From: Streptococcus cristatus ATCC 51100
GTDB taxonomy: Bacteria; Bacillota; Bacilli; Lactobacillales; Streptococcaceae
Reading direction: 5' to 3'
DNA length: 64,000 bases
Assembly: GCF_011612585.1 (NCBI RefSeq)
Contig: NZ_CP050133.1
Coordinates: forward strand, 1,797,001-1,861,000
Each line of letters opens with the position of its first letter. Position 1 is the stretch's first letter. Below the pieces are notes generated by a model. The model did no database searches and was not told the origin of the DNA. It was given only the letters and a program-made list of their open reading frames with translations. The translations under genes were made by a program, and so were the position numbers. Of this stretch, positions 37,127-48,237 are shown in pieces.

Positions 37127-38212
37127 TTAGGATACAAAGTAATAATTTTCTTTTAGTTCTCGGAAACGATCAAAACTGAGAATGCCCTCATTTTGTAATC
37201 TTCCTAGAACAATACTCGGGTGAATATTTATTTCTTCGGCAAATTGAAGGATGTCCGACTTATCAAAGTTTCCTTTTTCTACAAAAGCTTGATAGGCTTC
37301 AGGTCTAATCAAGAGATCTTTTGCAAACTGGTCTGCCTGTTCCTCAGAACGTCGGTATGAGTCACTGTTTCCGTCTTCAGATGAAAAATCGTTCTGTAAA
37401 ATGTGCCCAATCTCATGGAAAAGTGAAAACCAGAAAATATCGGATGCCTTGTTTCGGTCTGTCAATAATAGCAAGGCACTACCATTGCTGAATTTTTTTG
37501 TAGCACCATTCAGATTAGCATTTGCCAAAGCAGGTAGACCGACTAGAACAACACCACAGTCTAGCAAGATATCAGACAAGCGTTGAGGAAAGACTTCTGG
37601 ATCTTGCCTAGTCAACCCTCTCAAAGCAGGCAGATTTTTCTCTAGTTTTCTACGATTGAGCTTAGTAGTTGTTTTATCACGCGCCTTTTTAGATGCCAAC
37701 TCTAGCATGATATTGGAGTTGACTATACTTTTAGGCGTAAACTCACGTGTATTCCGATAACTCACTAGATGGTTGAAAGTCGTGAGGTTTTTTAAATTCG
37801 CCACACCTAAAATCTTGCGAAGCTCGACAATCTTTTCTTTCAAGGTATAGCGTTTGTCTGGAACGTAACCTTTTTCCTTAAAATACTTGAAATCAATCAT
37901 CTCACAGATTTCTTTCTCGCCACCTTCTTCCAGCTCTCTTTGCTCTGCAATCTCTGCAACTTTTACATCGTAAGCATTCTGAAGATTGAGCCAGGTTTGC
38001 ATGGAAACTCCGCTTAGCTTGGCCAACTTATGAGCCGTCTCCTTACTAATAGACTCCTCAGCATTGACGAGCTTGCTGACAGTCTTTGCAGAAACTCCCA
38101 AACGCTCTGCAAATTCTTTTTGCGTCACATTATAATCTTCAATCAACTCTTCAACATACTGACCTGGATGAAAAGCAATCAGGTCTTTATATTCAACAAT
38201 TTTATTACTCAT
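37127..38212 (-). CDS. HigA-like antitoxin with C-terminal ImmA/IrrE zinc-peptidase domain
   Basis: 361 aa. Residues about 15-75 are an XRE/HigA helix-turn-helix (VTQKEFAERLGVSAKTVSKLVN). The C-terminal half carries the metallopeptidase motif HEIGHIL with a downstream EEQADQFAKDLL third-ligand region, as in COG2856/ImmA-IrrE proteins. Antitoxin-protease fusions of this type are known next to HigB/RelE toxins. It overlaps the toxin gene by 8 nt, so expression is coupled. It probably represses the pair through the inverted repeat at 38560-38588. Confidence 0.88.
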   Translation of the reverse strand: MSNKIVEYKDLIAFHPGQYVEELIEDYNVTQKEFAERLGVSAKTVSKLVNAEESISKETAHKLAKLSGVSMQTWLNLQNAYDVKVAEIAEQRELEEGGEKEICEMIDFKYFKEKGYVPDKRYTLKEKIVELRKILGVANLKNLTTFNHLVSYRNTREFTPKSIVNSNIMLELASKKARDKTTTKLNRRKLEKNLPALRGLTRQDPEVFPQRLSDILLDCGVVLVGLPALANANLNGATKKFSNGSALLLLTDRNKASDIFWFSLFHEIGHILQNDFSSEDGNSDSYRRSEEQADQFAKDLLIRPEAYQAFVEKGNFDKSDILQFAEEINIHPSIVLGRLQNEGILSFDRFRELKENYYFVS

Positions 38213-38543
38213 AGTGATTGCTGACCTCCTCTATTTTTAGAATTTCGATTTCAACGGGACTAGGAAATACCTTTTCTAGATCCTCATCACGAAATTCTAC
38301 AATCAACCGATAGGAACTCCTTCGACCATCTATATCCAAAGCAAACTGTCCCTGTCTCTTTCCCTTGAGTTGGTGAAAGTGATATTTAGGAAAAGCTGTC
38401 ACACTAGCCAAAGAATCCGCCGCTTCCAAAAAGTTGATCAACTGATGCAACTTTACAGCAATCTTATCCGAAAAATCCTTTTTCGCTTGTCTCAGCTCTG
38501 TGCACTGCTTTTTAACAGTTTTGTTTGTATAGATAAGCTTCAT
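38205..38543 (-). CDS. RelE/HigB-like toxin
   Basis: 112-aa basic protein with the RelE/ParE-superfamily layout: an N-terminal helix-rich half and a C-terminal sheet (FHQLKGKRQGQFALDIDGRRS, YRLIVEF, VEIEILKIEEVSNHY). HigB-like toxins cleave mRNA on the ribosome. It precedes the antitoxin gene, the gene order typical of higBA. It has its own promoter region behind the hsdM terminator. Confidence 0.8.
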   Translation of the reverse strand: MKLIYTNKTVKKQCTELRQAKKDFSDKIAVKLHQLINFLEAADSLASVTAFPKYHFHQLKGKRQGQFALDIDGRRSSYRLIVEFRDEDLEKVFPSPVEIEILKIEEVSNHYE

Positions 38544-38673: not shown

Positions 38674-40275
38674 TCACCCTTTGAACTCCTTCAGAAACTG
38701 TTTGAGCTCAGCATCGGCTTCTGGTGTGGTTCCGTGGAGTTGATTAAGCATCTCTAGTAGCGAAGCTGTTTGGCTTTCGATTGCTTTATTTGTATCATTA
38801 ATCTTGCTGACGATTTCTGTTAGTAGCTCTACTTCTTCCTCCTCAAAGGTATCTACATAGCGAGGAATATTAAGGTTATAGTCATTTTCGACAATTTCTT
38901 CATAGCTTGCTAGATGGGCAAACTTATCAATCTCCTCACGAGACTTGTAGGCTTCCAGAATCTTCTCGATATGAACATCCGTCATGATATTCTGGTTTTT
39001 CCCCTTATCAAATTCCTTAGAGGCATCGATAAAGTAGACATCACGATTGATGCGGTTCTTTTTGAGAATGATGACCGTGGTCGGAATGCTGGTATTAAAG
39101 AAGATATTGGCAGGTAGACCAATAACCGTATCAATAGCCCCTTCTTCTAGCAAGGCCTTACGAATGGTCCCTTCCGCATTACCACGGAAAAGAACACCAT
39201 GAGGAAGGACGATAGTCATAACTCCATTATCTTGCTTGAGATGGTAGTAACCATGTAAAAGGAAGGCAAAGTCAGCCTTGGACTGAGGTGCTAGTTTCCC
39301 AAAAGGAGAGAAACGAGGATCATTCAGGAAGCCAGAACTTGCGGACCACTTGGCAGAGTATGGAGGGTTCATGAGAACCCCATCAAAGTTGGTCGGTTCT
39401 TGAGTCGGCCAGTCTTCGTCTAGTGTATCAGCATTGTGGAGAAATTGATTCTCAACTGGAACACCGTGTAGAATCATGTTCATCCGAGCCAAGTTATAAG
39501 TGGAGGTATTGAGCTCCTGACCGAAGTAGACCACCGTCTGCGGTTTATGAGAGTATTTCTTGGCATTGAGCAAGAGAGAGCCAGAGCCCATGGTCGCATC
39601 ATAGATGGTAAAACCTTGCTGGTCCTCACGACCTAAAAAGGCAATCTGAGTCATGAGTTTGGCAACAGGCTGAGGTGTATAAAACTCACCAGCCTTTTTA
39701 CCCGAGTCAGTCGCAAACTGACCGATCAGATACTCATAGGCATCCCCCAGCATATCGCCCGCATGACCAGCTACATCTAGAACAGCCAACTCCTTCATAA
39801 CTGCCGCCACCGTTTGGTTTTGCTTTTGTGGAGTTGCCCCTAACTTTTTAGAGTAGAGGTCGATATCTTCAAAGAGATTTTCATAGAGGTCGTCGCTCTG
39901 CTCAATATCTCGAAAGCCCTGCGCCAGATCTTCCAGCTGAAAAGTTCCCTCATTGACACGTGCTACTAGAGCGGTAAAGGTCAGGTCTGGCTTGATACTA
40001 TAGTTGAGTTCATCCTTCATGACCGTGAGGAGATCCTCGTGAGTGTCCGCATCCTCGTAGTAGGAGCGATAGACCTCAAGGGCATCCTCCAGACTATCTG
40101 TCCCCTCCTCCATAGTCTCCGCCACGAAAAAGAGCATCTTATCAGACAGATACTTGTAAAAGACCATGCCCAAAAGATAGGACTTATAGTCATTAGCATC
40201 CATCTTAGAGCGGAGAACATCCGCTGAGTTCCACAGGGCTTGGTAAAGCGACTGGGAAGTTTGTGTTGTTTCCAT
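38674..40275 (-). CDS. hsdM: Type I restriction-modification methyltransferase subunit HsdM
   Basis: 533-aa N6-adenine methyltransferase that joins HsdS to modify the recognition site and is also needed for restriction. It has the HsdM N-terminal helical domain, the AdoMet motif DATMGSGSLL and catalytic NPPYS. The start at 40275 (METTQ) fits the family; its ribosome binding site is weak (AGAAAG), and the open frame runs 12 codons further upstream almost to the ATPase gene, so coupling is likely. It is the last gene of the operon. Confidence 0.95.
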   Translation of the reverse strand: METTQTSQSLYQALWNSADVLRSKMDANDYKSYLLGMVFYKYLSDKMLFFVAETMEEGTDSLEDALEVYRSYYEDADTHEDLLTVMKDELNYSIKPDLTFTALVARVNEGTFQLEDLAQGFRDIEQSDDLYENLFEDIDLYSKKLGATPQKQNQTVAAVMKELAVLDVAGHAGDMLGDAYEYLIGQFATDSGKKAGEFYTPQPVAKLMTQIAFLGREDQQGFTIYDATMGSGSLLLNAKKYSHKPQTVVYFGQELNTSTYNLARMNMILHGVPVENQFLHNADTLDEDWPTQEPTNFDGVLMNPPYSAKWSASSGFLNDPRFSPFGKLAPQSKADFAFLLHGYYHLKQDNGVMTIVLPHGVLFRGNAEGTIRKALLEEGAIDTVIGLPANIFFNTSIPTTVIILKKNRINRDVYFIDASKEFDKGKNQNIMTDVHIEKILEAYKSREEIDKFAHLASYEEIVENDYNLNIPRYVDTFEEEEVELLTEIVSKINDTNKAIESQTASLLEMLNQLHGTTPEADAELKQFLKEFKG

Positions 40276-40319
40276 AGTGTTTCTTTCTTTTTGCTTAATC
40301 CAAAATATCAAAAATTAAT

Positions 40320-42188
40320 TTAATGGTTCAATAGTTTTGCTTCCAATTCTTCAAAATATTTATGACGTAGTTCTTTCTGTAAATCACTATCCAATGAAAT
40401 TCGACTTAAAGCTTTTTCTTTGAACTTAGGAGTTATTTCTGTGTTTCCTCTATACTCTGTTATTTCTTCCTTTAAATTACAAATTTTTAAAATTGCTGAA
40501 AAATTAGATGAATCCAAACTTGCTTCAACGATAGAATTGATTTTATTAAACGTTGAATCTACATCAAATTCAGAGGCTAAGCTATCTAAAAACACATGAG
40601 CATCGTGTTCATTTGGTTCACTTTTTTCAATAAAATGACTTTCCATAAATTCATCAAGTCTCTTTTTCAAGGCAATATTTATTATTTTATCTTTTTTCTC
40701 TCTACATGAACTAATAATCGCATCTTTAAAATTATTAAATTTTCGCTGTTGTCCTGTATTATCATCAAATGGTAATACAGATTTCACTACTGATTCATCT
40801 ACTAAAATCATCTCTATTTCATTAAATGGAAGAACAAAAATAGCCTGTTCTTTGTATACTTGAATACTACTTTCATCCATCCAGTCATTATCTATAATTC
40901 CATATGCTGTATTACCATGTAAATGTTGTAAATTATTATAGGCTTTTGTATGTTGGATAACCTGTTTATGTCCTTGAACTGGTTTTACAAAACAAAATTC
41001 ACTGAATAATTTGGAATATATTTGATAGTCCAGACTAGTTTTAGTCCCCTCGCAAAATAGGATCGGCTTTCTTGTCCCAGATACTTCAGTTAATAAGGAT
41101 AAAGGAATTTCTTGTGATTCTTCTAATATCTCATAATCCAAATCATAAGGTGCTTCAAATTTCTTACACCACAAATAGGTAGCGTTTGTTCTTGATTGAA
41201 CAAAATCCATATTATGTGAAGCAAAAATGAATTGACAGTCAGGACGTTCTGATATCAGTAAGTCCCATAATTCATTATAGACTGCAGCATTTAAAAAAGT
41301 TTCTGGTTCATCAATAACAATATAGCTATTTTCTGGAGCAAGAAAGACATTACCTATATAAAACAATATGCACCGCTCCCCATCACTAAGCCCATTTATA
41401 CTATATCTAGAGCCATTTTTTTCAACTTCAACAACTCTATTATCAGGTTCTAGAATAAATTTTATTTCAGGTAATATGAGATTCCAAACCTGCTCTACTC
41501 TATCCCATAAAGCTAAATGTAAATCTTTTTCTCCTCGTGATTTACGGGTAGCAATATTTGTATAATCTTTTACCAATAACGTTATCATTTTAGTAAAAGA
41601 ACTGGAAAAATCATTCTCGATATTATAAGTCTGTATTTCAATCGTGTTATATTTAATTTCTGCTTTTTTCAAGCCTTCTATATATTTGTCTTTATTAATA
41701 CTATCACGACCAAAAACATTAGAGACAAAATATAATAATTTTTGAGCAGGTAAAACATACATCTCATCTATACTATTCTTCCGTAATTCATTAATAAGAC
41801 TTGATTTTCCTGCTCCATTAGCTCCTATAATAACCGTTGTAGACTCCACTTTTGAAATAAACGAGAAAAGTTTAATTACTTTAAAATTCTCTAAAATTTG
41901 AGGTAGGTTTGTTTCATACACATAAACATCACTACCAAAGCAATAGTATATACTTTCTAGCCAATTATCACGCAGATTTTTATACTTTTCTGTTATATCA
42001 CCAGATAAAAACTCATCATTTAGTTCGTTATTAATCAAATCAATAAGAGTTGAAAAATAATTATCTACTTGCTGATATTGAATATGATATGCTTCTTTTT
42101 CATAATCAGCTAATTCACTAAAGATATCTTGAAGTCTTTTCTTTTCGGATTCTAAATTTTCAATTAATTCTTTAACAGAGCGATACAT
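40320..42188 (-). CDS. ABC-type ATPase fused to a DUF4435/TOPRIM-like domain (PARIS-like defence protein)
   Basis: 622 aa. The first 40 per cent holds an SMC/ABC-type ATPase: Walker A GANGAGKS (122-129), signature LSDGE (267-271), Walker B VIDEPE (291-296) and ASHN H-loop (323-326). From about 370 a second domain starts with ILFCEG (E380) and continues to IIDND (D433, D435), the acidic pattern of a TOPRIM/OLD-like nuclease and of DUF4435. In PARIS defence, AriA is such an ATPase and AriB such a nuclease; fused forms exist. It lies between hsdS and hsdM (9-nt gap before, GGAGG ribosome binding site). The gene is clearly AT-richer than hsdM. An OLD-like nuclease is the main alternative. Confidence 0.75.
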   Translation of the reverse strand: MYRSVKELIENLESEKKRLQDIFSELADYEKEAYHIQYQQVDNYFSTLIDLINNELNDEFLSGDITEKYKNLRDNWLESIYYCFGSDVYVYETNLPQILENFKVIKLFSFISKVESTTVIIGANGAGKSSLINELRKNSIDEMYVLPAQKLLYFVSNVFGRDSINKDKYIEGLKKAEIKYNTIEIQTYNIENDFSSSFTKMITLLVKDYTNIATRKSRGEKDLHLALWDRVEQVWNLILPEIKFILEPDNRVVEVEKNGSRYSINGLSDGERCILFYIGNVFLAPENSYIVIDEPETFLNAAVYNELWDLLISERPDCQFIFASHNMDFVQSRTNATYLWCKKFEAPYDLDYEILEESQEIPLSLLTEVSGTRKPILFCEGTKTSLDYQIYSKLFSEFCFVKPVQGHKQVIQHTKAYNNLQHLHGNTAYGIIDNDWMDESSIQVYKEQAIFVLPFNEIEMILVDESVVKSVLPFDDNTGQQRKFNNFKDAIISSCREKKDKIINIALKKRLDEFMESHFIEKSEPNEHDAHVFLDSLASEFDVDSTFNKINSIVEASLDSSNFSAILKICNLKEEITEYRGNTEITPKFKEKALSRISLDSDLQKELRHKYFEELEAKLLNH

Positions 42189-42197
42189 AATTCCTCC

Positions 42198-43427
42198 TTA
42201 AATAAACATATCCTGCAAGAGTTTCTTTTTCAACGTCTCAAGCTGAGTAATTTTTTCTCGGTAACCGTTGATGAGGTTATCGAGATTTGAAAAGTAAGCG
42301 CCAATGGCATGTTGTTCCTCCATAGCTGGATAGTGTAAAACAACTTTTTCTAAGTCGTTTTTTCTTAAGTGAACGACTGATTTACCTTGTGCTCTTTTAA
42401 TCAATTCTTTCTGTTGACTTCCATTTGAAATGGTTAAAGCCAAAAAGATAGAGTCCACTTTATTTTCATCTGGATTGATTATATTTAAATCACCACCCAA
42501 AATAATTCCTGATTTTTCAACAACTGACGCTCTTGAAATATCCTCTGCACTTTCACCAGATGCTGGAACTATAACTTCTCCACCTTTACTAATCACAGCA
42601 TTTACTTTTACTGTAGTAACAAAAGTATTAACTTTAGAAATTACAGTTTGGTAATTAGTATAAAGTCGACCATATAGAATTATCTCTTTGCCAGAATTAA
42701 CCAAGTCATTTTTGGTATATCCATTCCCTTTAGAAAAACTAGCTAATTCTTTTAAAGTTTGAACTTCCCACTCACCTTCAAATCCATCCAAACGAATCTC
42801 AGGAACTGTCTGTCCAGCTTTGGGAAACATCTTGGAGAGCATGGTCGCCTTGAGAGCTTGGTAGTTGGCGAGATTGTCTTTGTAGCTTGCCAAAAGGTCG
42901 TCGAGGGTGCGGAAAAGGGAACCGATAGCGGATTGTTCTTCAATCCTTGGAAGACTTATTTTCTTAGAAAGTAAGTCTTCTTTAGTAATTCCTTTAATTG
43001 AAGTTCCTTGTAGCTGTGTACTTTCTTTTTGCAGCATTCTATAGATACTATAGACTAGAAAATGAGTATCTCCTTTTAAATCTGAGAGAGACAAAAAATC
43101 TTGGCTTGTTGCGTAATCTTGATCTATGATAGCCAATTTACCAACACCAACTCTGGTAACAACAGCAATAGAATTTTTAGGAATTAATTTAGCTGATGAA
43201 TTTTGTAACCCCTCCTCTGAAATAAATTTTTGAGGTTTTACACCAAATAATTTATCCTTCTGTAAATCTGATGATTGAATCCACGGTATAGTGCCATCCC
43301 AAAAGATCGGCTCTTTGGTACTTGGAGTTCCTCCGGTTTTGAACTGACAAGCTGCATTACTAATCTTTACAAGAAGCCAATTCTCATCAAATTTATCAAA
43401 TCTATATTTAGGTGATTCATTTTTCAT
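42198..43427 (-). CDS. hsdS: Type I restriction specificity subunit HsdS
   Basis: 409 aa with two target-recognition domains (about 10-160 and 215-365), each followed by a conserved helical region (LDDLLASYKDNLANYQALK and LDNLINGYREKITQLETLK) that spaces the two half-sites. It sets the DNA sequence recognised by the HsdM/HsdR complex. The start codon overlaps the reverse-transcriptase stop (ATGA, 43424-43427), so it is translated in coupling with that gene. No second hsdS copy or recombinase was seen, so no phase-variable shuffling is apparent here. Confidence 0.94.
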   Translation of the reverse strand: MKNESPKYRFDKFDENWLLVKISNAACQFKTGGTPSTKEPIFWDGTIPWIQSSDLQKDKLFGVKPQKFISEEGLQNSSAKLIPKNSIAVVTRVGVGKLAIIDQDYATSQDFLSLSDLKGDTHFLVYSIYRMLQKESTQLQGTSIKGITKEDLLSKKISLPRIEEQSAIGSLFRTLDDLLASYKDNLANYQALKATMLSKMFPKAGQTVPEIRLDGFEGEWEVQTLKELASFSKGNGYTKNDLVNSGKEIILYGRLYTNYQTVISKVNTFVTTVKVNAVISKGGEVIVPASGESAEDISRASVVEKSGIILGGDLNIINPDENKVDSIFLALTISNGSQQKELIKRAQGKSVVHLRKNDLEKVVLHYPAMEEQHAIGAYFSNLDNLINGYREKITQLETLKKKLLQDMFI

Positions 43428-44779
43428 TTATTACTCTTTTCTATACGAGAATGTATTCGATACCCTAACGCACTCTCAATTTTTTTCTTTCTATTTTTTA
43501 ATTGTGCTAACATCAAATTGTTAGTATTTGGACTAATTTTATTAAAAATATGTTGAGCACGCTTTGCATAGCTAATAAAATTACTCGGATAATATTTGGA
43601 TCTCCCAAAATCGGTATATAAAGAATAAATTTTATGTCGATTAGGCAATTTTGCCAGCCCTTTTCTCTTTTGTATTACTTTTGAATCATATATTAACTTT
43701 CGAGCATTTCTATAGAATTTATAGATACTCTTTTCTCTTATTTTTACATTTTTTCCATCAAACGAAAAACCTAAATAATCAATTTGGCATACTCTGTCAT
43801 TATTATTTATAACGATTTTATCTTTGATAAAATAAGTTTTAATCTTCTCCAATTGTAAATATATTCTGTTTGTTTTTGAAAGGTCTTCAATAATTTCATT
43901 TACTTTTTCAACATAATCTTCTCCGTACTTATCAATTAGTTTTTCGATGTTCAAAACTAGAATAAAGTCATCTGAATATCTTTGATAAAAGCCATCGAAA
44001 TCTTTGGAAATATCAGACATACATTTATCAAAATCAATAGCATAAATATTAGCTAATATTCCACTTAAAGAATTACCTTGTGGTATTCCGTAAGAATTCT
44101 TATTCAATTTACACTTATTTTCTTTTTTAAACTTTCTAAAATCTCTAATATTTTTAAAATAACTAATATAATTATGTTGAACCAAAGGATTATCAGAATT
44201 ATCTAAAGTTTCCTTATCAATAAATGCAAATTTTGTTAAAGATTTATAAATATTATACCAATCTGGCGGTAATTGTTTAACATTTAAAATAGCAGACAAT
44301 CTTTCCTTTAATAACTCATGATCAAGAGTATCAAAAAATTTTTCAAAATCACCAACTATAACATATGCAGTAGATTGTTTCTCTATGAAATGAATTGCCT
44401 CCGCTGCAAAATTAATGTTACTTTGATGCTTTCTATTAGTTCGATAAGCAACAGAATATTTATCAAGCTTTGCTTCTGTAATCCATTCGTTATAATAGAT
44501 ATTTAAAATATCGGAATAATATTTATAAATGAAACTATCTAAGTGACCCGAATACATTAGAGTACGTATTTTTTGTTTTACAGGCCTATTTCCCGTACTA
44601 GCACGCTCGTATCCAACAAATTTTTCTGATATTTTATTGTAACACAAAAAAGGAAGAAAGCTATGGTGAGCAATCTTCTCTGGGTTTACAATGTAATTCT
44701 TAACTTTATGAATAGAAACTTGTTTATCAATATGCAAATAACCTTTGCATCTATATAAATCAAAATTAATTTTTTTCAT
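43424..44779 (-). CDS. Defence-type reverse transcriptase, DRT2-like
   Basis: 451-aa reverse transcriptase with the RT fold in order: AYR (111-113), motif A GDFEKFFD (D144), GIPQGNSLSG (231-240), catalytic YSDD (268-271) and YLGF (335-338), then a basic thumb-like C-terminus. There is no group II intron maturase or endonuclease domain, and I see no retron VTG or NAxxH motifs. This points to the Unknown-Group/DRT antiviral RTs. No Shine-Dalgarno is visible before the ATG, and a perfect 11-bp hairpin lies 12 nt upstream. A structured, stop-free non-coding region precedes it, as in DRT2. It is inserted between hsdR and hsdS and is very AT-rich. The RT identity is firm; the DRT2 subtype is inferred. 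Confidence 0.85.
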   Translation of the reverse strand: MKKINFDLYRCKGYLHIDKQVSIHKVKNYIVNPEKIAHHSFLPFLCYNKISEKFVGYERASTGNRPVKQKIRTLMYSGHLDSFIYKYYSDILNIYYNEWITEAKLDKYSVAYRTNRKHQSNINFAAEAIHFIEKQSTAYVIVGDFEKFFDTLDHELLKERLSAILNVKQLPPDWYNIYKSLTKFAFIDKETLDNSDNPLVQHNYISYFKNIRDFRKFKKENKCKLNKNSYGIPQGNSLSGILANIYAIDFDKCMSDISKDFDGFYQRYSDDFILVLNIEKLIDKYGEDYVEKVNEIIEDLSKTNRIYLQLEKIKTYFIKDKIVINNNDRVCQIDYLGFSFDGKNVKIREKSIYKFYRNARKLIYDSKVIQKRKGLAKLPNRHKIYSLYTDFGRSKYYPSNFISYAKRAQHIFNKISPNTNNLMLAQLKNRKKKIESALGYRIHSRIEKSNK

Positions 44780-44791
44780 ACATCAAAAGGA

Positions 44792-44835
44792 GCAATATTA
44801 ACAATAGGTCGGTAATCCTAAAAAGTTAATATTGC
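44792..44835 (-). other. Hairpin between the ncRNA and the RT start codon
   Basis: GCAATATTAAC and GTTAATATTGC form a perfect 11-bp stem with an inner TAGG/CCTA pair in the loop. It could mark the ncRNA 3' boundary, act as a processing site or hide the RT translation start. Confidence 0.6.
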
Positions 44836-44859
44836 ACGCTTAACTACTATTACTAACTA

Positions 44860-45176
44860 CCGAATATTAAATAATTGCTTGTTATCTTAAGAAGTGTAAA
44901 GAACAACATAAACTGTTTCACCTTTCTTGTATAGAAACACTCAATTAGAGTTTGCATAAGAGCCGAACTGAGCTCCGCTTCAATTGATAAGCGAAGGTCG
45001 GATCCAAAGTGCGGAATGTAGCGCTTTGATAGTTTCACAATAAAACACGCAGCGATGTAGATCGCTGAAAGATAAGCACAACCTATCTCTATTGTACCAC
45101 GAAATTCTATCGTGAGCAATGTATAATCCAAAGAACAAGCTAAATCCAATATCCCATACGGCTATACCTATGGACG
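44860..45176 (-). ncRNA. Structured RNA upstream of the reverse transcriptase (candidate DRT2-like template RNA)
   Basis: Between hsdR and the RT lies about 460 nt with no conventional gene but dense secondary structure on the minus strand. Clear stems, 5' to 3', are CACGA/TCGTG, CAGCGAT/ATCGCTG with a 4-nt loop, CAAAG/CTTTG, CTTCGCTT/AAGCGGAG closed by CCGA/TCGG, and TGTTTC/GAAACA. One frame stays open for 98 codons (44853-45149), with stops in both other frames. Two GTGAAAC copies 117 nt apart could define a reverse-transcribed unit. The 5' end follows from the promoter; the 3' end is a guess. Confidence 0.65.
44922..45038 (-). other. Predicted 117-nt rolling-circle template unit with an endless open frame
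   Basis: The unit runs from the first base of GTGAAAC copy 1 (45038) to the base before copy 2 (44921). 117 nt is 39 codons, both copies are in the same frame, and that frame has no stop, so head-to-tail copies would encode an uninterrupted 39-residue repeat beginning VKLSKRYIPHFG. An ATG lies inside the unit. A related pair of GTGTTT copies (45048 and 44940) would give 108 nt, also in frame. The boundaries are inferred from sequence only. Confidence 0.5.
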
Positions 45177-45182
45177 CTAACT

Positions 45183-45211
45183 ATTTTATCATATATATTT
45201 AGTATAGTAAA
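45183..45211 (-). promoter_or_regulatory. Promoter of the candidate ncRNA
   Basis: On the minus strand, TTTACT (45206-45211), a 17-bp spacer and TAAAAT (45183-45188) lie in the AT-rich tail just after hsdR. The predicted transcript would begin at about 45176. Confidence 0.55.
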
Positions 45212-45243
45212 GAAAATATTAATTTTTAGTAAACTAAATAAAC

Positions 45244-48237
45244 TCATCTACCAACTCTCAGTGGCTCAATCACCTCTTCGACAAGTTGCTTACAAGCTTC
45301 CTTGATTTGTTTTTTATAGAGGAGAGGATTGAGGGCATCTGACACCTCAACTTTATAGTCCTTGTAACGCTGACTCTTGGTCAGTTGACTTTCTCCCAGT
45401 TGTTTTTTGGCTCCCTTGCGGTAGTGTTCGACATAGTAACGGAGTTCATCCTCTCCGACATACCAACGTTTGCTAAAGACTTGGATGTGTTGCTGGATAA
45501 CAGCCTCGATCATCTGATCCAAGATATTTGCGATAGACTGGCCTCGATAGCTTTCTGGATTTGCTTGGACTTCTCTCCAAAGTTCAGTAATGATCTGGGC
45601 AAGATTTGGATTGGTCTTCTCAAGACTCTGAATATAGTTATCCACTGCCTCTCTATCTTGAGCGCTTAGGTTCTTTTCTTGACTTTGACCTTGTTCAATC
45701 AGGCTTTGGATCAGGGTTAGGATATAGGCATAATTGATTTCATCCACTTGAATAGACTCTAGTTCATAGTGGATATCAAGGGGCTCTCCTTCCTCAACAC
45801 CATCATCTATTCGGCTTTTTAATTCGGCTAGGATGTTTTGATAGAAGCCTAGATAGGTTTCCAACACTTCTGCACTGAGTCCTGTCTGGGCGTAGATTTC
45901 TTCCTCATCATACTCTTTATAAACTCGGATAGAAGCTAGGTACTTATCAAAGACTTGATAGGCCTTGGCGAGCTTTCTCAACTCAGGTGTGGAGATTTGC
46001 TCGATTTGAAGCCCTTCCTCCGGATCATCGGTGATGAGATTTTGGAAATCACTACAACTCCGCAAAAAGTTTCTCTTCTCCTCTTCCCAGCTCGGCGCTA
46101 GGACCTCATTTTCTCCACCATTTGAGTAGAGTTTAAGGGCATTATCGACTGCTTCTTTAAAGGCTAAAGGCTTTTGGAAGGTGATGATATGACCATAAGT
46201 CTTACTAGAATCAAAGATCCGGTTGGTTCGACTAAAGGCCTGAATCAAGTCCTGTGGCTGCATAGGCTTTCTGTCGATAAAGAGAGTTGATAGACAAGGC
46301 GCATCAAATCCCGTTAAGAGACGATTGACCACGATAACTAAGTCCAACTGTTCATTGCGATAGATATACTTATCCTGTTTTCGAGCCAAACGGTTATTGA
46401 CATCCGTATTAAAACCACGAAGATCCGCCATGGTAAAGTGGGTATCAAACTCTTGGTTATAGTCTAGTAAGACCTGCTTCATGTGGTCTTGGTTGGCTCT
46501 TGAGTCTTCTTCATTCTCTGTAACGGAGTAGGTGATGGTCGCCTTTGGAAAGTCTGGAAGGACCTGCTTGACCCTTTCCGACACCTTGACACGTGTCTGA
46601 CCAGCCTTGACTCGTTTGAGTAGATCATAGTAGGCTTTGGCTTGAGGGATGGATTTAACGGTTAGGATGGCATTGTAGGTCTTACCTACTCCCTTTTGGA
46701 AGCCTAGCTGTTGGCGGGATTTATTGATAATGGCATCCAAGACTTCCAGCATATGCTCCTCATCTTCGTAGACACTATCTGGGACTTGATCTTCAGACTG
46801 TTCTGTGATGAGGGTATTGCGGTAATCGACCTTAAACCCTAGAACTGCGCCATCATGGATAGCTTCCTTGACCGTATATTCATGGAGACGGTCCCCATAC
46901 TGTTGCTGAGTGGTTTGAGCTAGGTCACCGACCTGCTGGCGTTTATTTTCCTTAAAGATGGGGGTTCCTGTAAAACCATACCAGAGAGACTGCGGAAAAA
47001 AGGCTTTAATATCTTTTTGTGTTTGCGGTGTCACGGCACGGTGGCATTCATCCACCACAAAGGCCACTCGGAAGCCCTTGATTTTATCCGCATCTCTTTG
47101 GTAAAGACCTTGGTCAAATTTGCGCATCATGGTGGTGATTTTCTGGATGGTGGTCACCACGACACGCTTATCATTACTTCCTAGTCGCTTAACTAAATCA
47201 TAAGTATTGTCCGTCTCATCGATATCAATGACATCATTGGTCGCATAGGAGAGGAAGGATGAAGTGGTCTGTTGGTCCAAGTCCCTGCGGTCAACGACAA
47301 AAATCGTCTTTTGGATAGAAGGAATTTGAAGGAGATTCCGCGCTACCTTATAAGAAGTCAAGGTTTTCCCTGAACCTGTCGTATGCCAAACGTAGCCAGA
47401 CTCCTGACGACGTGAAGCTTCCTGAACCGCTTCGATAGCATGGATCTGGTAGGGACGCAAGAGGATAAGAGATTTCTTGCTATCATCAATGACAGAATAC
47501 TGCATGACCATCTGGTGAGCACGAGGGATGGACAGGACTTCGTGGGCAAAGCTGGTCAAGCTCGTTATGGGTTGGTTATCCTTATCGACCCACTTGGTTA
47601 GAAATTGCTTGTTAAGTTTATTTTCTCTAGCTGCAGCGATATACCGTGTATCCACCTTATTGGTCACAACAAACATCTGCAAGCTAGAGTAGATACCACG
47701 GAACTTGCCTTCCCGATCATACTTTTTAATCTGATGAAAGGCATCTAAAAAGGCTACTCGGGGACTTTTAAGCTCGATTTGAATCATAGGCAAGCCATTG
47801 ATGAGCAGGGTAACATCCAGTCTACGGTCTTGGTCCAGAGGATTTACTTTTTCTCGTTGGACTTGATTGACAACTTCGTAGCTAGACTTTCCTGCTGCGA
47901 TATTGTCTCGCCAAATGACTGACAAACGGATGGTACCTAGACTTGCATCTTCTCTTTGAACCTCGACTTTGGCAATGCTATTTTCCCCGACCAACCACTT
48001 AGCAGCATCATAGTAGCTGACAAAGTTTAGTTGGTTCTGAATCTGACGTTTTTCCTGTGCTGTCAAGGGATTGTCTGCTAACAGAGCAACGTTGTTTTGG
48101 GCTAGTTTCTCAAAGAAATTGTCCCATAGTTGTTCTTCTGTTTTTAAGTCTTCTCTATAAGTCCATTGGCTTTCACCAGTTACCAGTTGGTTGATCAGTT
48201 GTTTCTCTATCTCCAGTTCTGGTTTCACCTGCATCAT
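45244..48237 (-). CDS. hsdR: Type I restriction endonuclease subunit HsdR
   Basis: 997-aa motor and nuclease subunit that translocates DNA and cuts unmethylated targets. The N-terminal nuclease core shows IELKSP (E-x-K), followed by two RecA-like helicase domains with Walker A TTGSGKT, the DEAD-like [15 protein letters not shown] and a late QAFSRTNR motif, then a helical C-terminal region that docks on HsdM. Two adjacent ATGs (48237 and 48234) follow AAAGGAGAGA. It is first in the operon; the ncRNA and RT separate it from hsdS. Confidence 0.95.

Follow-up and report, generated by a model that had tools for sequence, protein, structure and literature searches.

A reverse transcriptase (RT) gene and a structured noncoding RNA (ncRNA) upstream of it lie on the minus strand of a 64,000-nucleotide stretch of Streptococcus cristatus ATCC 51100 (RefSeq assembly GCF_011612585.1, contig NZ_CP050133.1, positions 1,797,001 to 1,861,000), which is hereafter called the window and whose numbering is used throughout. 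The locus resembles the DRT2 type of anti-phage system, wherein an RNA carries a hidden gene called neo. An annotation made earlier from the sequence alone (the original prediction) had suggested as much, but the unusual point in the streptococci, which is the strand of the open frame, was absent from it. The features of the locus, all on the minus strand, are as follows.

43424..44779, minus strand: DRT2 RT of 451 amino acids with a YSDD motif, recognized by PADLOC, by phmmer against the PDB and by AlphaFold2 with Foldseek
45183..45211, minus strand: candidate ncRNA promoter read from the sequence, TTTACT ... GATAAAAT, with the -10-like GATAAAAT at 45183-45190
44784..45177, minus strand: predicted ncRNA with approximate ends (folding z -2.72, covarying stems)
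45154..45173, minus strand: 5' handle hairpin, CCATA...TATGG
45141..45145, minus strand: jump motif 1, ATTTA, 8 nt past the handle stem
44873..45145, minus strand: proposed template and neo repeat unit, 273 nt or 91 codons, with one sense frame stop-free over the junction
45091..45119, minus strand: weak candidate sense promoter, TTGCTC-17-TACAAT with a TG extension
44907..44925, minus strand: candidate Shine-Dalgarno (SD) sequence (AAAGGTGA) with an ATG that is in phase with the sense frame, towards the 3' end of the unit
44868..44872, minus strand: jump motif 2, ATTTA, 9 nt ahead of the pseudoknot strand
44858..44863, minus strand: pseudoknot strand UCGGUA, which pairs with UACCGA
44853..44855, minus strand: genomic stop codon of the sense frame, located outside the template
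44792..44835, minus strand: tower hairpin GCAAUAUUAAC/GUUAAUAUUGC, 11/11 pairs, the loop containing UACCGA

The assignment of the RT to the DRT2 family is firmly supported by profiles, phmmer and fold. Both leading PADLOC models are Drt2 models (415.5 and 268.6 bits), the next RT family reaching 77 bits and Drt9 74.5 bits, and the top NCBIfam model is likewise Drt2, at 323.5 bits and under its cut-off of 390. Searching the PDB with phmmer retrieves the Klebsiella DRT2 structures (9c0i, E 4.9e-55). An AlphaFold2 model built on 33 relatives (pLDDT 88.2) is matched first by 9c0i in Foldseek, with TM scores of 0.80/0.85, and DRT9 follows at less than 0.5. The catalytic residues Y268, S269, D270 and D271 are invariant in the 33-row alignment, and Pfam finds RVT_1 as the sole domain, which indicates one RT gene with no additional domain. 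Two other identities were tried and rejected, namely a group II intron RT (TIGR04416, 67.5 bits against a cut-off of 300) and a retron RT (retron St85 model, 35.6 bits against a cut-off of 235). Rfam gives nothing at gathering score across 42100-46000. The original prediction had described an RT with YSDD that is DRT2-like and free of intron or retron signatures; re-reading of the frame, the profile and fold matches and the low intron maturase and retron scores uphold all of this.

There are five streptococcal loci that share the upstream RNA: that of the window (W), L008 (S. infantis UC6950A), L006 (genome G154), L009 (S. mitis 17/34) and L007 (genome G226). The same five are the only matches to a scaffold pattern among 284 genomes of the genus, and the handle and scaffold patterns have 0 matches in viral contigs. 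The 450 nt upstream in L009 are identical to those of genome G307. L008, L006 and L009 are close kin, and thus three lineages is the honest count. In L007, the match is limited to RT residues 8-94, in an open frame of 112 codons. Its flipped ncRNA and open sense frame, at about 1385-1800 of the locus, are kept despite this shortened RT.

The original prediction envisaged a promoter followed by some 320 nt of hairpin-rich RNA. The -10-like GATAAAAT and the folding of the RNA (z -2.72, with 0/100 shuffles folding as well) agree with it, but the RNA is longer, at about 390 nt. At the position equivalent to the promoter, L008, L006 and L009 carry TTGACT ... GGTAAAAT. Stems were tested for covariation among the five loci, with stem arms picked by eye, and are named after PMC12039810, from which the terms handle, tower and buttress are taken. 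The handle is kept in L008, L006 and L009, replaced by another 7-bp stem in L007, and shows a compensated change at one pair. All pairs of the tower stem can form in W and the close kin (11/11) as well as in L007 (9/9), and compensatory changes affect two pairs in L007 and one pair in L008. Four loci have the pseudoknot UCGGUA:UACCGA, for which L007 has UCGGUG:CACCGA. A stem at the template ends reads GCUUGUU:AACAAGC in W, GUCAC:GUGAC in L008 and UUUAC:GUGAA in L007. No buttress hairpin was seen by eye in the alignment of the streptococcal loci. The RNA next to the RT has the DRT2 layout, which runs from the handle through 8 nt, jump motif 1, the template, jump motif 2 and the pseudoknot to the tower.

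Within this RNA there is an open frame at 44853-45149 on the minus strand, which is the strand of the RT, with 98 codons from a TTG or 102 codons from stop to stop. Over the 400 nt that precede the RT, the longest antisense frame has only 28 codons, and hence the single open frame of 98 codons claimed in the original prediction is confirmed. All antisense frames of W have 5-7 stops per unit. Any of six frames is circularly open in 57/5000 dinucleotide shuffles of the 273-nt unit, and the observed sense phase is open in 47/20000 mononucleotide shuffles of W.

The same arrangement recurs in all five loci, wherein the handle stem is followed by 8 nt and ATTT, and a second ATTT lies 9 nt before the UCGG pseudoknot strand. 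When end-zone repeats of at least 4 nt were listed, no other geometry was common to all five. The resulting units are 273, 237, 237, 246 and 231 nt long in W, L008, L006, L009 and L007, respectively, and all are divisible by three. One sense frame is stop-free over the junction in 5/5 loci and an antisense frame in 0/5, with the sense phase open in 47-81/20000 shuffles per locus. Both the RNA structure and a stop-free sense frame are conserved among the five streptococcal loci.

In the DRT2 systems of PMC12039810 and PMC11100668, the template occupies 120 nt of an ncRNA of 280 nt, and the RT turns it into tandem cDNA by jumps between a pair of ACA repeats. The -35 and -10 elements, 17 bp apart, are assembled over the junction, and neo is a stop-free open reading frame (ORF) whose mRNA is antisense to the ncRNA. 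DRT2 gene creation is so far known with an antisense hidden gene and with a promoter split over the repeat ends. Several features are common to the streptococcal locus and the Klebsiella pneumoniae system of these papers and of 9c0i, namely the family and fold of the RT, an ncRNA upstream of it that comprises a 5' handle, a template, a pseudoknot and a tower, direct repeats that flank the template, and one frame that stays stop-free in a unit whose length is divisible by three. Whereas the Klebsiella locus has a 120-nt unit, ACA repeats, an antisense neo and a promoter split over the junction, the streptococcal locus has a 273-nt unit, ATTT repeats, a sense frame and no junction promoter that our scan (below) could find. 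The system is a variant, because it has a stop-free unit divisible by three without an antisense frame, ACA repeats or a junction promoter.

An alignment of 33 proteins, used to scan genomes, retrieved 355 relatives, of which the best 80 were kept; a genome scan with the single protein gave 52 pattern matches and 0 relatives. Upstream of the RT, the longest frame is antisense in 76/84 regions and sense in 8/84, four of these eight being W and three streptococcal relatives. The 84 regions comprise W and 83 loci, and exclude L059 (57 nt upstream), L091 and L092 (short matches), L005 and L093 (duplicates), L007 (unrecognised at that point) and L001-L004 (from the window's own genome). L055, with a tie of 66 codons on each strand, was scored as antisense. 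Among the remaining sense cases, L030 and L033 nevertheless have antisense junction units in the scan, with 1 and 0 mismatches, and the upstream DNA of L063 and L078 was judged by eye to be another gene or another RNA. The idea that all Gram-positive DRT2 loci are sense was rejected, since the longest frame of L010-L029 is antisense.

Nine Firmicute loci (L012-L018, L020, L021) provide a canonical set; they are those of L010-L023 in which a GTT layout was seen, and L010, L011, L019, L022 and L023 stand outside the count. Their GTT-flanked units are 180-192 nt long, are divisible by three in 9/9, and are stop-free antisense in 9/9 and sense in 0/9, with -35/-10-like elements, imperfect in some, over the antisense junction. 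In this set GTT replaces ACA, and the units of 180-192 nt compare with the published 120. These loci share with the streptococcal ones the handle-8-nt-motif geometry, a tower followed by CUCC, and an RT that is 43-48% identical. By script, the gap is 8 nt in 6/9; it is 7 nt in L016, and the script took another stem in L017 and L018 (8 nt by eye). They differ in their GTT repeats, shorter units, antisense frame and antisense junction promoter, and in a buttress-like hairpin that was not seen by eye in the streptococcal loci. The strand of the frame distinguishes the two groups by Fisher's test with p 0.0005 for five streptococcal loci and 0.0045 for three lineages. The assumption in the original prediction that a sense frame is the usual DRT2 layout was wrong, given that neo is antisense both in the published systems and in 9/9 Firmicute loci.

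The junction scan covered 95 rows (L096, L098 and L100 excluded) and required direct repeats 3 nt or longer, a unit of 99-330 nt that is a multiple of three, a frame that is open around the circle and a junction promoter. The best antisense promoter has 0 mismatches in 35 rows, 1 in 29, 2 in 17 and 3-4 in 8, with none found in 6. Among 190 shuffles, which cover the antisense strand only, there are 0 mismatches in 0, one in 2, two in 26 and 3-4 in 113, with none found in 49. An antisense junction promoter with at most one mismatch is therefore present in 64/95 rows compared to 2/190 shuffles. L094, L095rc, L097rc, L099rc and L104 share their best antisense site with another row and are probably loci counted twice. 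On the sense strand, the best promoter has 0 mismatches in 0 rows, 1 in 3 (L007, L040, L055), 2 in 10 and 3-4 in 46, with none in 36. The scan did not find TTGACA-17-TATAAT over the antisense junction in W, L008, L006, L009 or L007 (0/5), and a plain canonical neo at the window locus was rejected for this reason. The sixth row lacking an antisense hit is L089, a DRT2 relative from a viral contig, for which the scan finds no unit on either strand. Separately, a compact sequence, ACCTTATCCGA...AGGCGRTAAGG, recurs in similar form upstream of the RT in three Lachnospiraceae DRT2 relatives (L052, L074, L078), whose best antisense junction promoter has 4 mismatches; they are perhaps another neo-less or different DRT2 variant.

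Taken with the RT, these features make it probable that the locus encodes an anti-phage system of DRT2 type and belongs to a streptococcal branch whose hidden neo has switched strands. A more specific proposal, which we regard as evenly poised between right and wrong, is that neo has the same sense as the ncRNA and that reverse transcription activates it by omitting a genomic stop rather than by assembling a split promoter. Upon phage infection, the RT would copy the 273-nt template and would jump from the first ATTTA back to the second, which would generate concatemeric cDNA that then becomes double-stranded. Sense transcription might start from an intact extended -10 promoter in each repeat, or from another promoter, to give a repetitive mRNA. 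Ribosomes would initiate at the SD and ATG near the 3' end of the unit and continue stop-free, and the product would be a hydrophobic protein of 91-amino-acid repeats that halts the cell. In the genomic sequence, 18 codons separate this start from a stop that lies just beyond the template, and we propose that the gene is therefore kept silent by a broken frame and not by a split promoter. PMC12039810 raises the possibility, in its Discussion, that phage-specific promoters serve some DRT2 systems, and such a promoter would also fit sense transcription here.

Several observations weigh against the strand-switched reading. L008 and L006 each have one antisense frame with a single stop per unit (the best antisense frames of L009 and L007 have two and three), the independent lineages number only three and one of them (L007) has a broken RT, and the ATTT motif was chosen by eye after the open frame was known. 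The locus might instead be a DRT2 of the ordinary antisense kind with an overlooked neo unit, in which case the template ends would lie at other positions and the sense ORF would result from base composition and RNA structure. The near-open antisense frames of L008, L006 and L009 favour this, as do the shortness and AT-richness of the (A)ATTT motif and the position of the W RT near antisense kin in the tree. We nevertheless find it improbable, because all units of 99-330 nt were scanned and no antisense junction promoter emerged in the five loci, while one with at most 4 mismatches was found in 89/90 other rows (shuffles often reach 3-4 mismatches, such that low counts alone are telling), and because every antisense frame of W is interrupted 5-7 times per unit.

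The evidence for a sense promoter is also weak. The candidate promoter element in the unit is TTGCTC/TGGTACAAT; the units of W, L008, L006 and L009 each contain an uninterrupted extended -10 preceded at 17-18 bp by TTGCTC, and that of L007 contains TGTGGTATGAT. No sense promoter in the streptococcal loci clearly beats shuffles. The full -35/-10 score is matched by 215/300 shuffles for W and 205/300 for L007, which is unremarkable, and is mildly better in L008, L006 and L009 (43-57/300, with 57/300 for L008). For the extended -10 alone, shuffles are as good in 861/4000 for W and 813/4000 for L007, which is weak, and in 52-64/4000 for L008, L006 and L009. In addition, the best sense junction promoters that the scan finds in the five loci have 1-3 mismatches and belong to units of other lengths (195-285 nt) than the ATTT unit. 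These promoters and the near-open antisense frames of L008 and L006 are the reasons for placing the sense-neo proposal no higher than even.

An in-frame SD-like sequence and ATG near the 3' end of the unit are present in 5/5 streptococcal loci, and shuffles do as well in 834/4000 for W and 100-121/4000 for the four relatives. These signals could instead belong to a conventional small gene or leader peptide of 18-21 codons on an ncRNA-RT transcript, in which case DRT2-like cDNA would be made without a sense neo. The stop 18 codons after the SD and ATG in W and a possible intact sense promoter upstream are consistent with such a peptide. This alternative seems unlikely, since it leaves unexplained the 60-70 or so codons that are open before the ATG in the same phase in three lineages, the carrying of this phase over the repeat, and the unit length divisible by three in 5/5.

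Evidence of coding is also faint. There is no clear codon bias, with differences at codon positions 1, 2 and 3 of 8, 8 and 13 for L008-L009, 2, 4 and 2 for L008-L006, and 9, 12 and 11 for L006-L009. Hydrophobicity of the repeats is not above that of open shuffles, which are as high in 14 to 79 of 150. The hydrophobic share is 0.49-0.52 in streptococcal repeats and 0.49-0.55 in six canonical ones, with low proline in both, a likeness that base composition alone may explain. Perhaps, then, the template is copied and the cDNA itself is the effector, with no protein made from it. The abstracts of PMC12483538 and PMC12632851 describe DNA products of other DRT types, homopolymer and tandem-repeat DNA for DRT9 and DRT10, and the codon-position signal of the putative sense frame is weak. 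This alternative is very unlikely, because the RT is a DRT2 enzyme distant from Drt9 (415.5 compared to 74.5 bits) and because frame phase and unit length are conserved. The proposed streptococcal system does resemble DRT10 in ncRNA-templated repeat addition by a defence RT; DRT10 differs in its protein-primed tandem-repeat DNA and RT family, and no coded repeat protein is described in the opening of the PMC12632851 abstract.

A quick tree of 54 RTs places the four flipped loci with a whole RT in a 14-row clade with support of 100, along with proteins of S. suis and S. ruminantium. Next to join, giving 16 rows with support of 95, is the Aerococcus locus L010, whose antisense junction promoter has no mismatch. 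The tree is midpoint-rooted, and five mis-oriented rows (L095, L097, L099, L101, L103) are its long branches. The start of the L007 RT resembles the S. ruminantium protein P0017. The simplest reading of these relationships would be that the strand was switched once, at the origin of the streptococcal branch.

The claim of a Gram-positive version that may not have been described holds only in part. Gram-positive DRT2 is not rare, in that record titles are mostly of Bacillota among the best 80 of the 355 relatives, but the sense strand in streptococci is unusual. No description of a sense-strand neo or a streptococcal DRT2 was recognised in a literature search whose coverage leaves out most subscription journals. 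If the sense reading is true, it would be a second way of hiding a gene in RNA, the strand of neo could evolve, promoter assembly would be separable from frame creation, and these loci would offer a natural experiment on what gates Neo. A sense neo may also explain part of the divergent DRT2 clades whose neo annotation is called 'more challenging' in PMC11100668.

The DRT2 locus is placed between hsdR and hsdS, inside a type I restriction operon whose other members are listed here.

45244..48237, minus strand: type I restriction hsdR (PADLOC, Pfam, NCBIfam)
42198..43427, minus strand: type I hsdS (PADLOC, Pfam)
40320..42188, minus strand: fused AAA and DUF4435 protein, PARIS-like (PADLOC AriAB, 356.9 bits; PF14491)
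38674..40311, minus strand: type I hsdM (PADLOC, Pfam, NCBIfam)

The operon (hsdR, hsdS, hsdM) at 38674-48237 is thus split by DRT2 and the AriAB-like fusion, such that multiple anti-phage systems are clustered. In L009, hsdM, AbiD and hsdS are located downstream of the RT, and in L008 this region has transposase-like ORFs and an hsdM-like ORF, as read by eye. Adjoining hsdM of the window, the region 37127-38543 encodes a helix-turn-helix (HTH) and ImmA/IrrE-like protein (PADLOC PD-Lambda-2_B, 94.8 bits) and a weak HigB-like ORF that scores 24.5 bits, below the Pfam cut-off of 27; the two are possibly a toxin-antitoxin-like or PD-Lambda-2-like pair. Outside the window, the same genome carries a divergent Drt3a/Drt3b pair at about 1749.5-1752.5 kb of G000:C1 (L001, L003), scoring 214.5 bits (a 267-amino-acid piece) and 417.4 bits, and hence two different DRT systems are present in one streptococcus.

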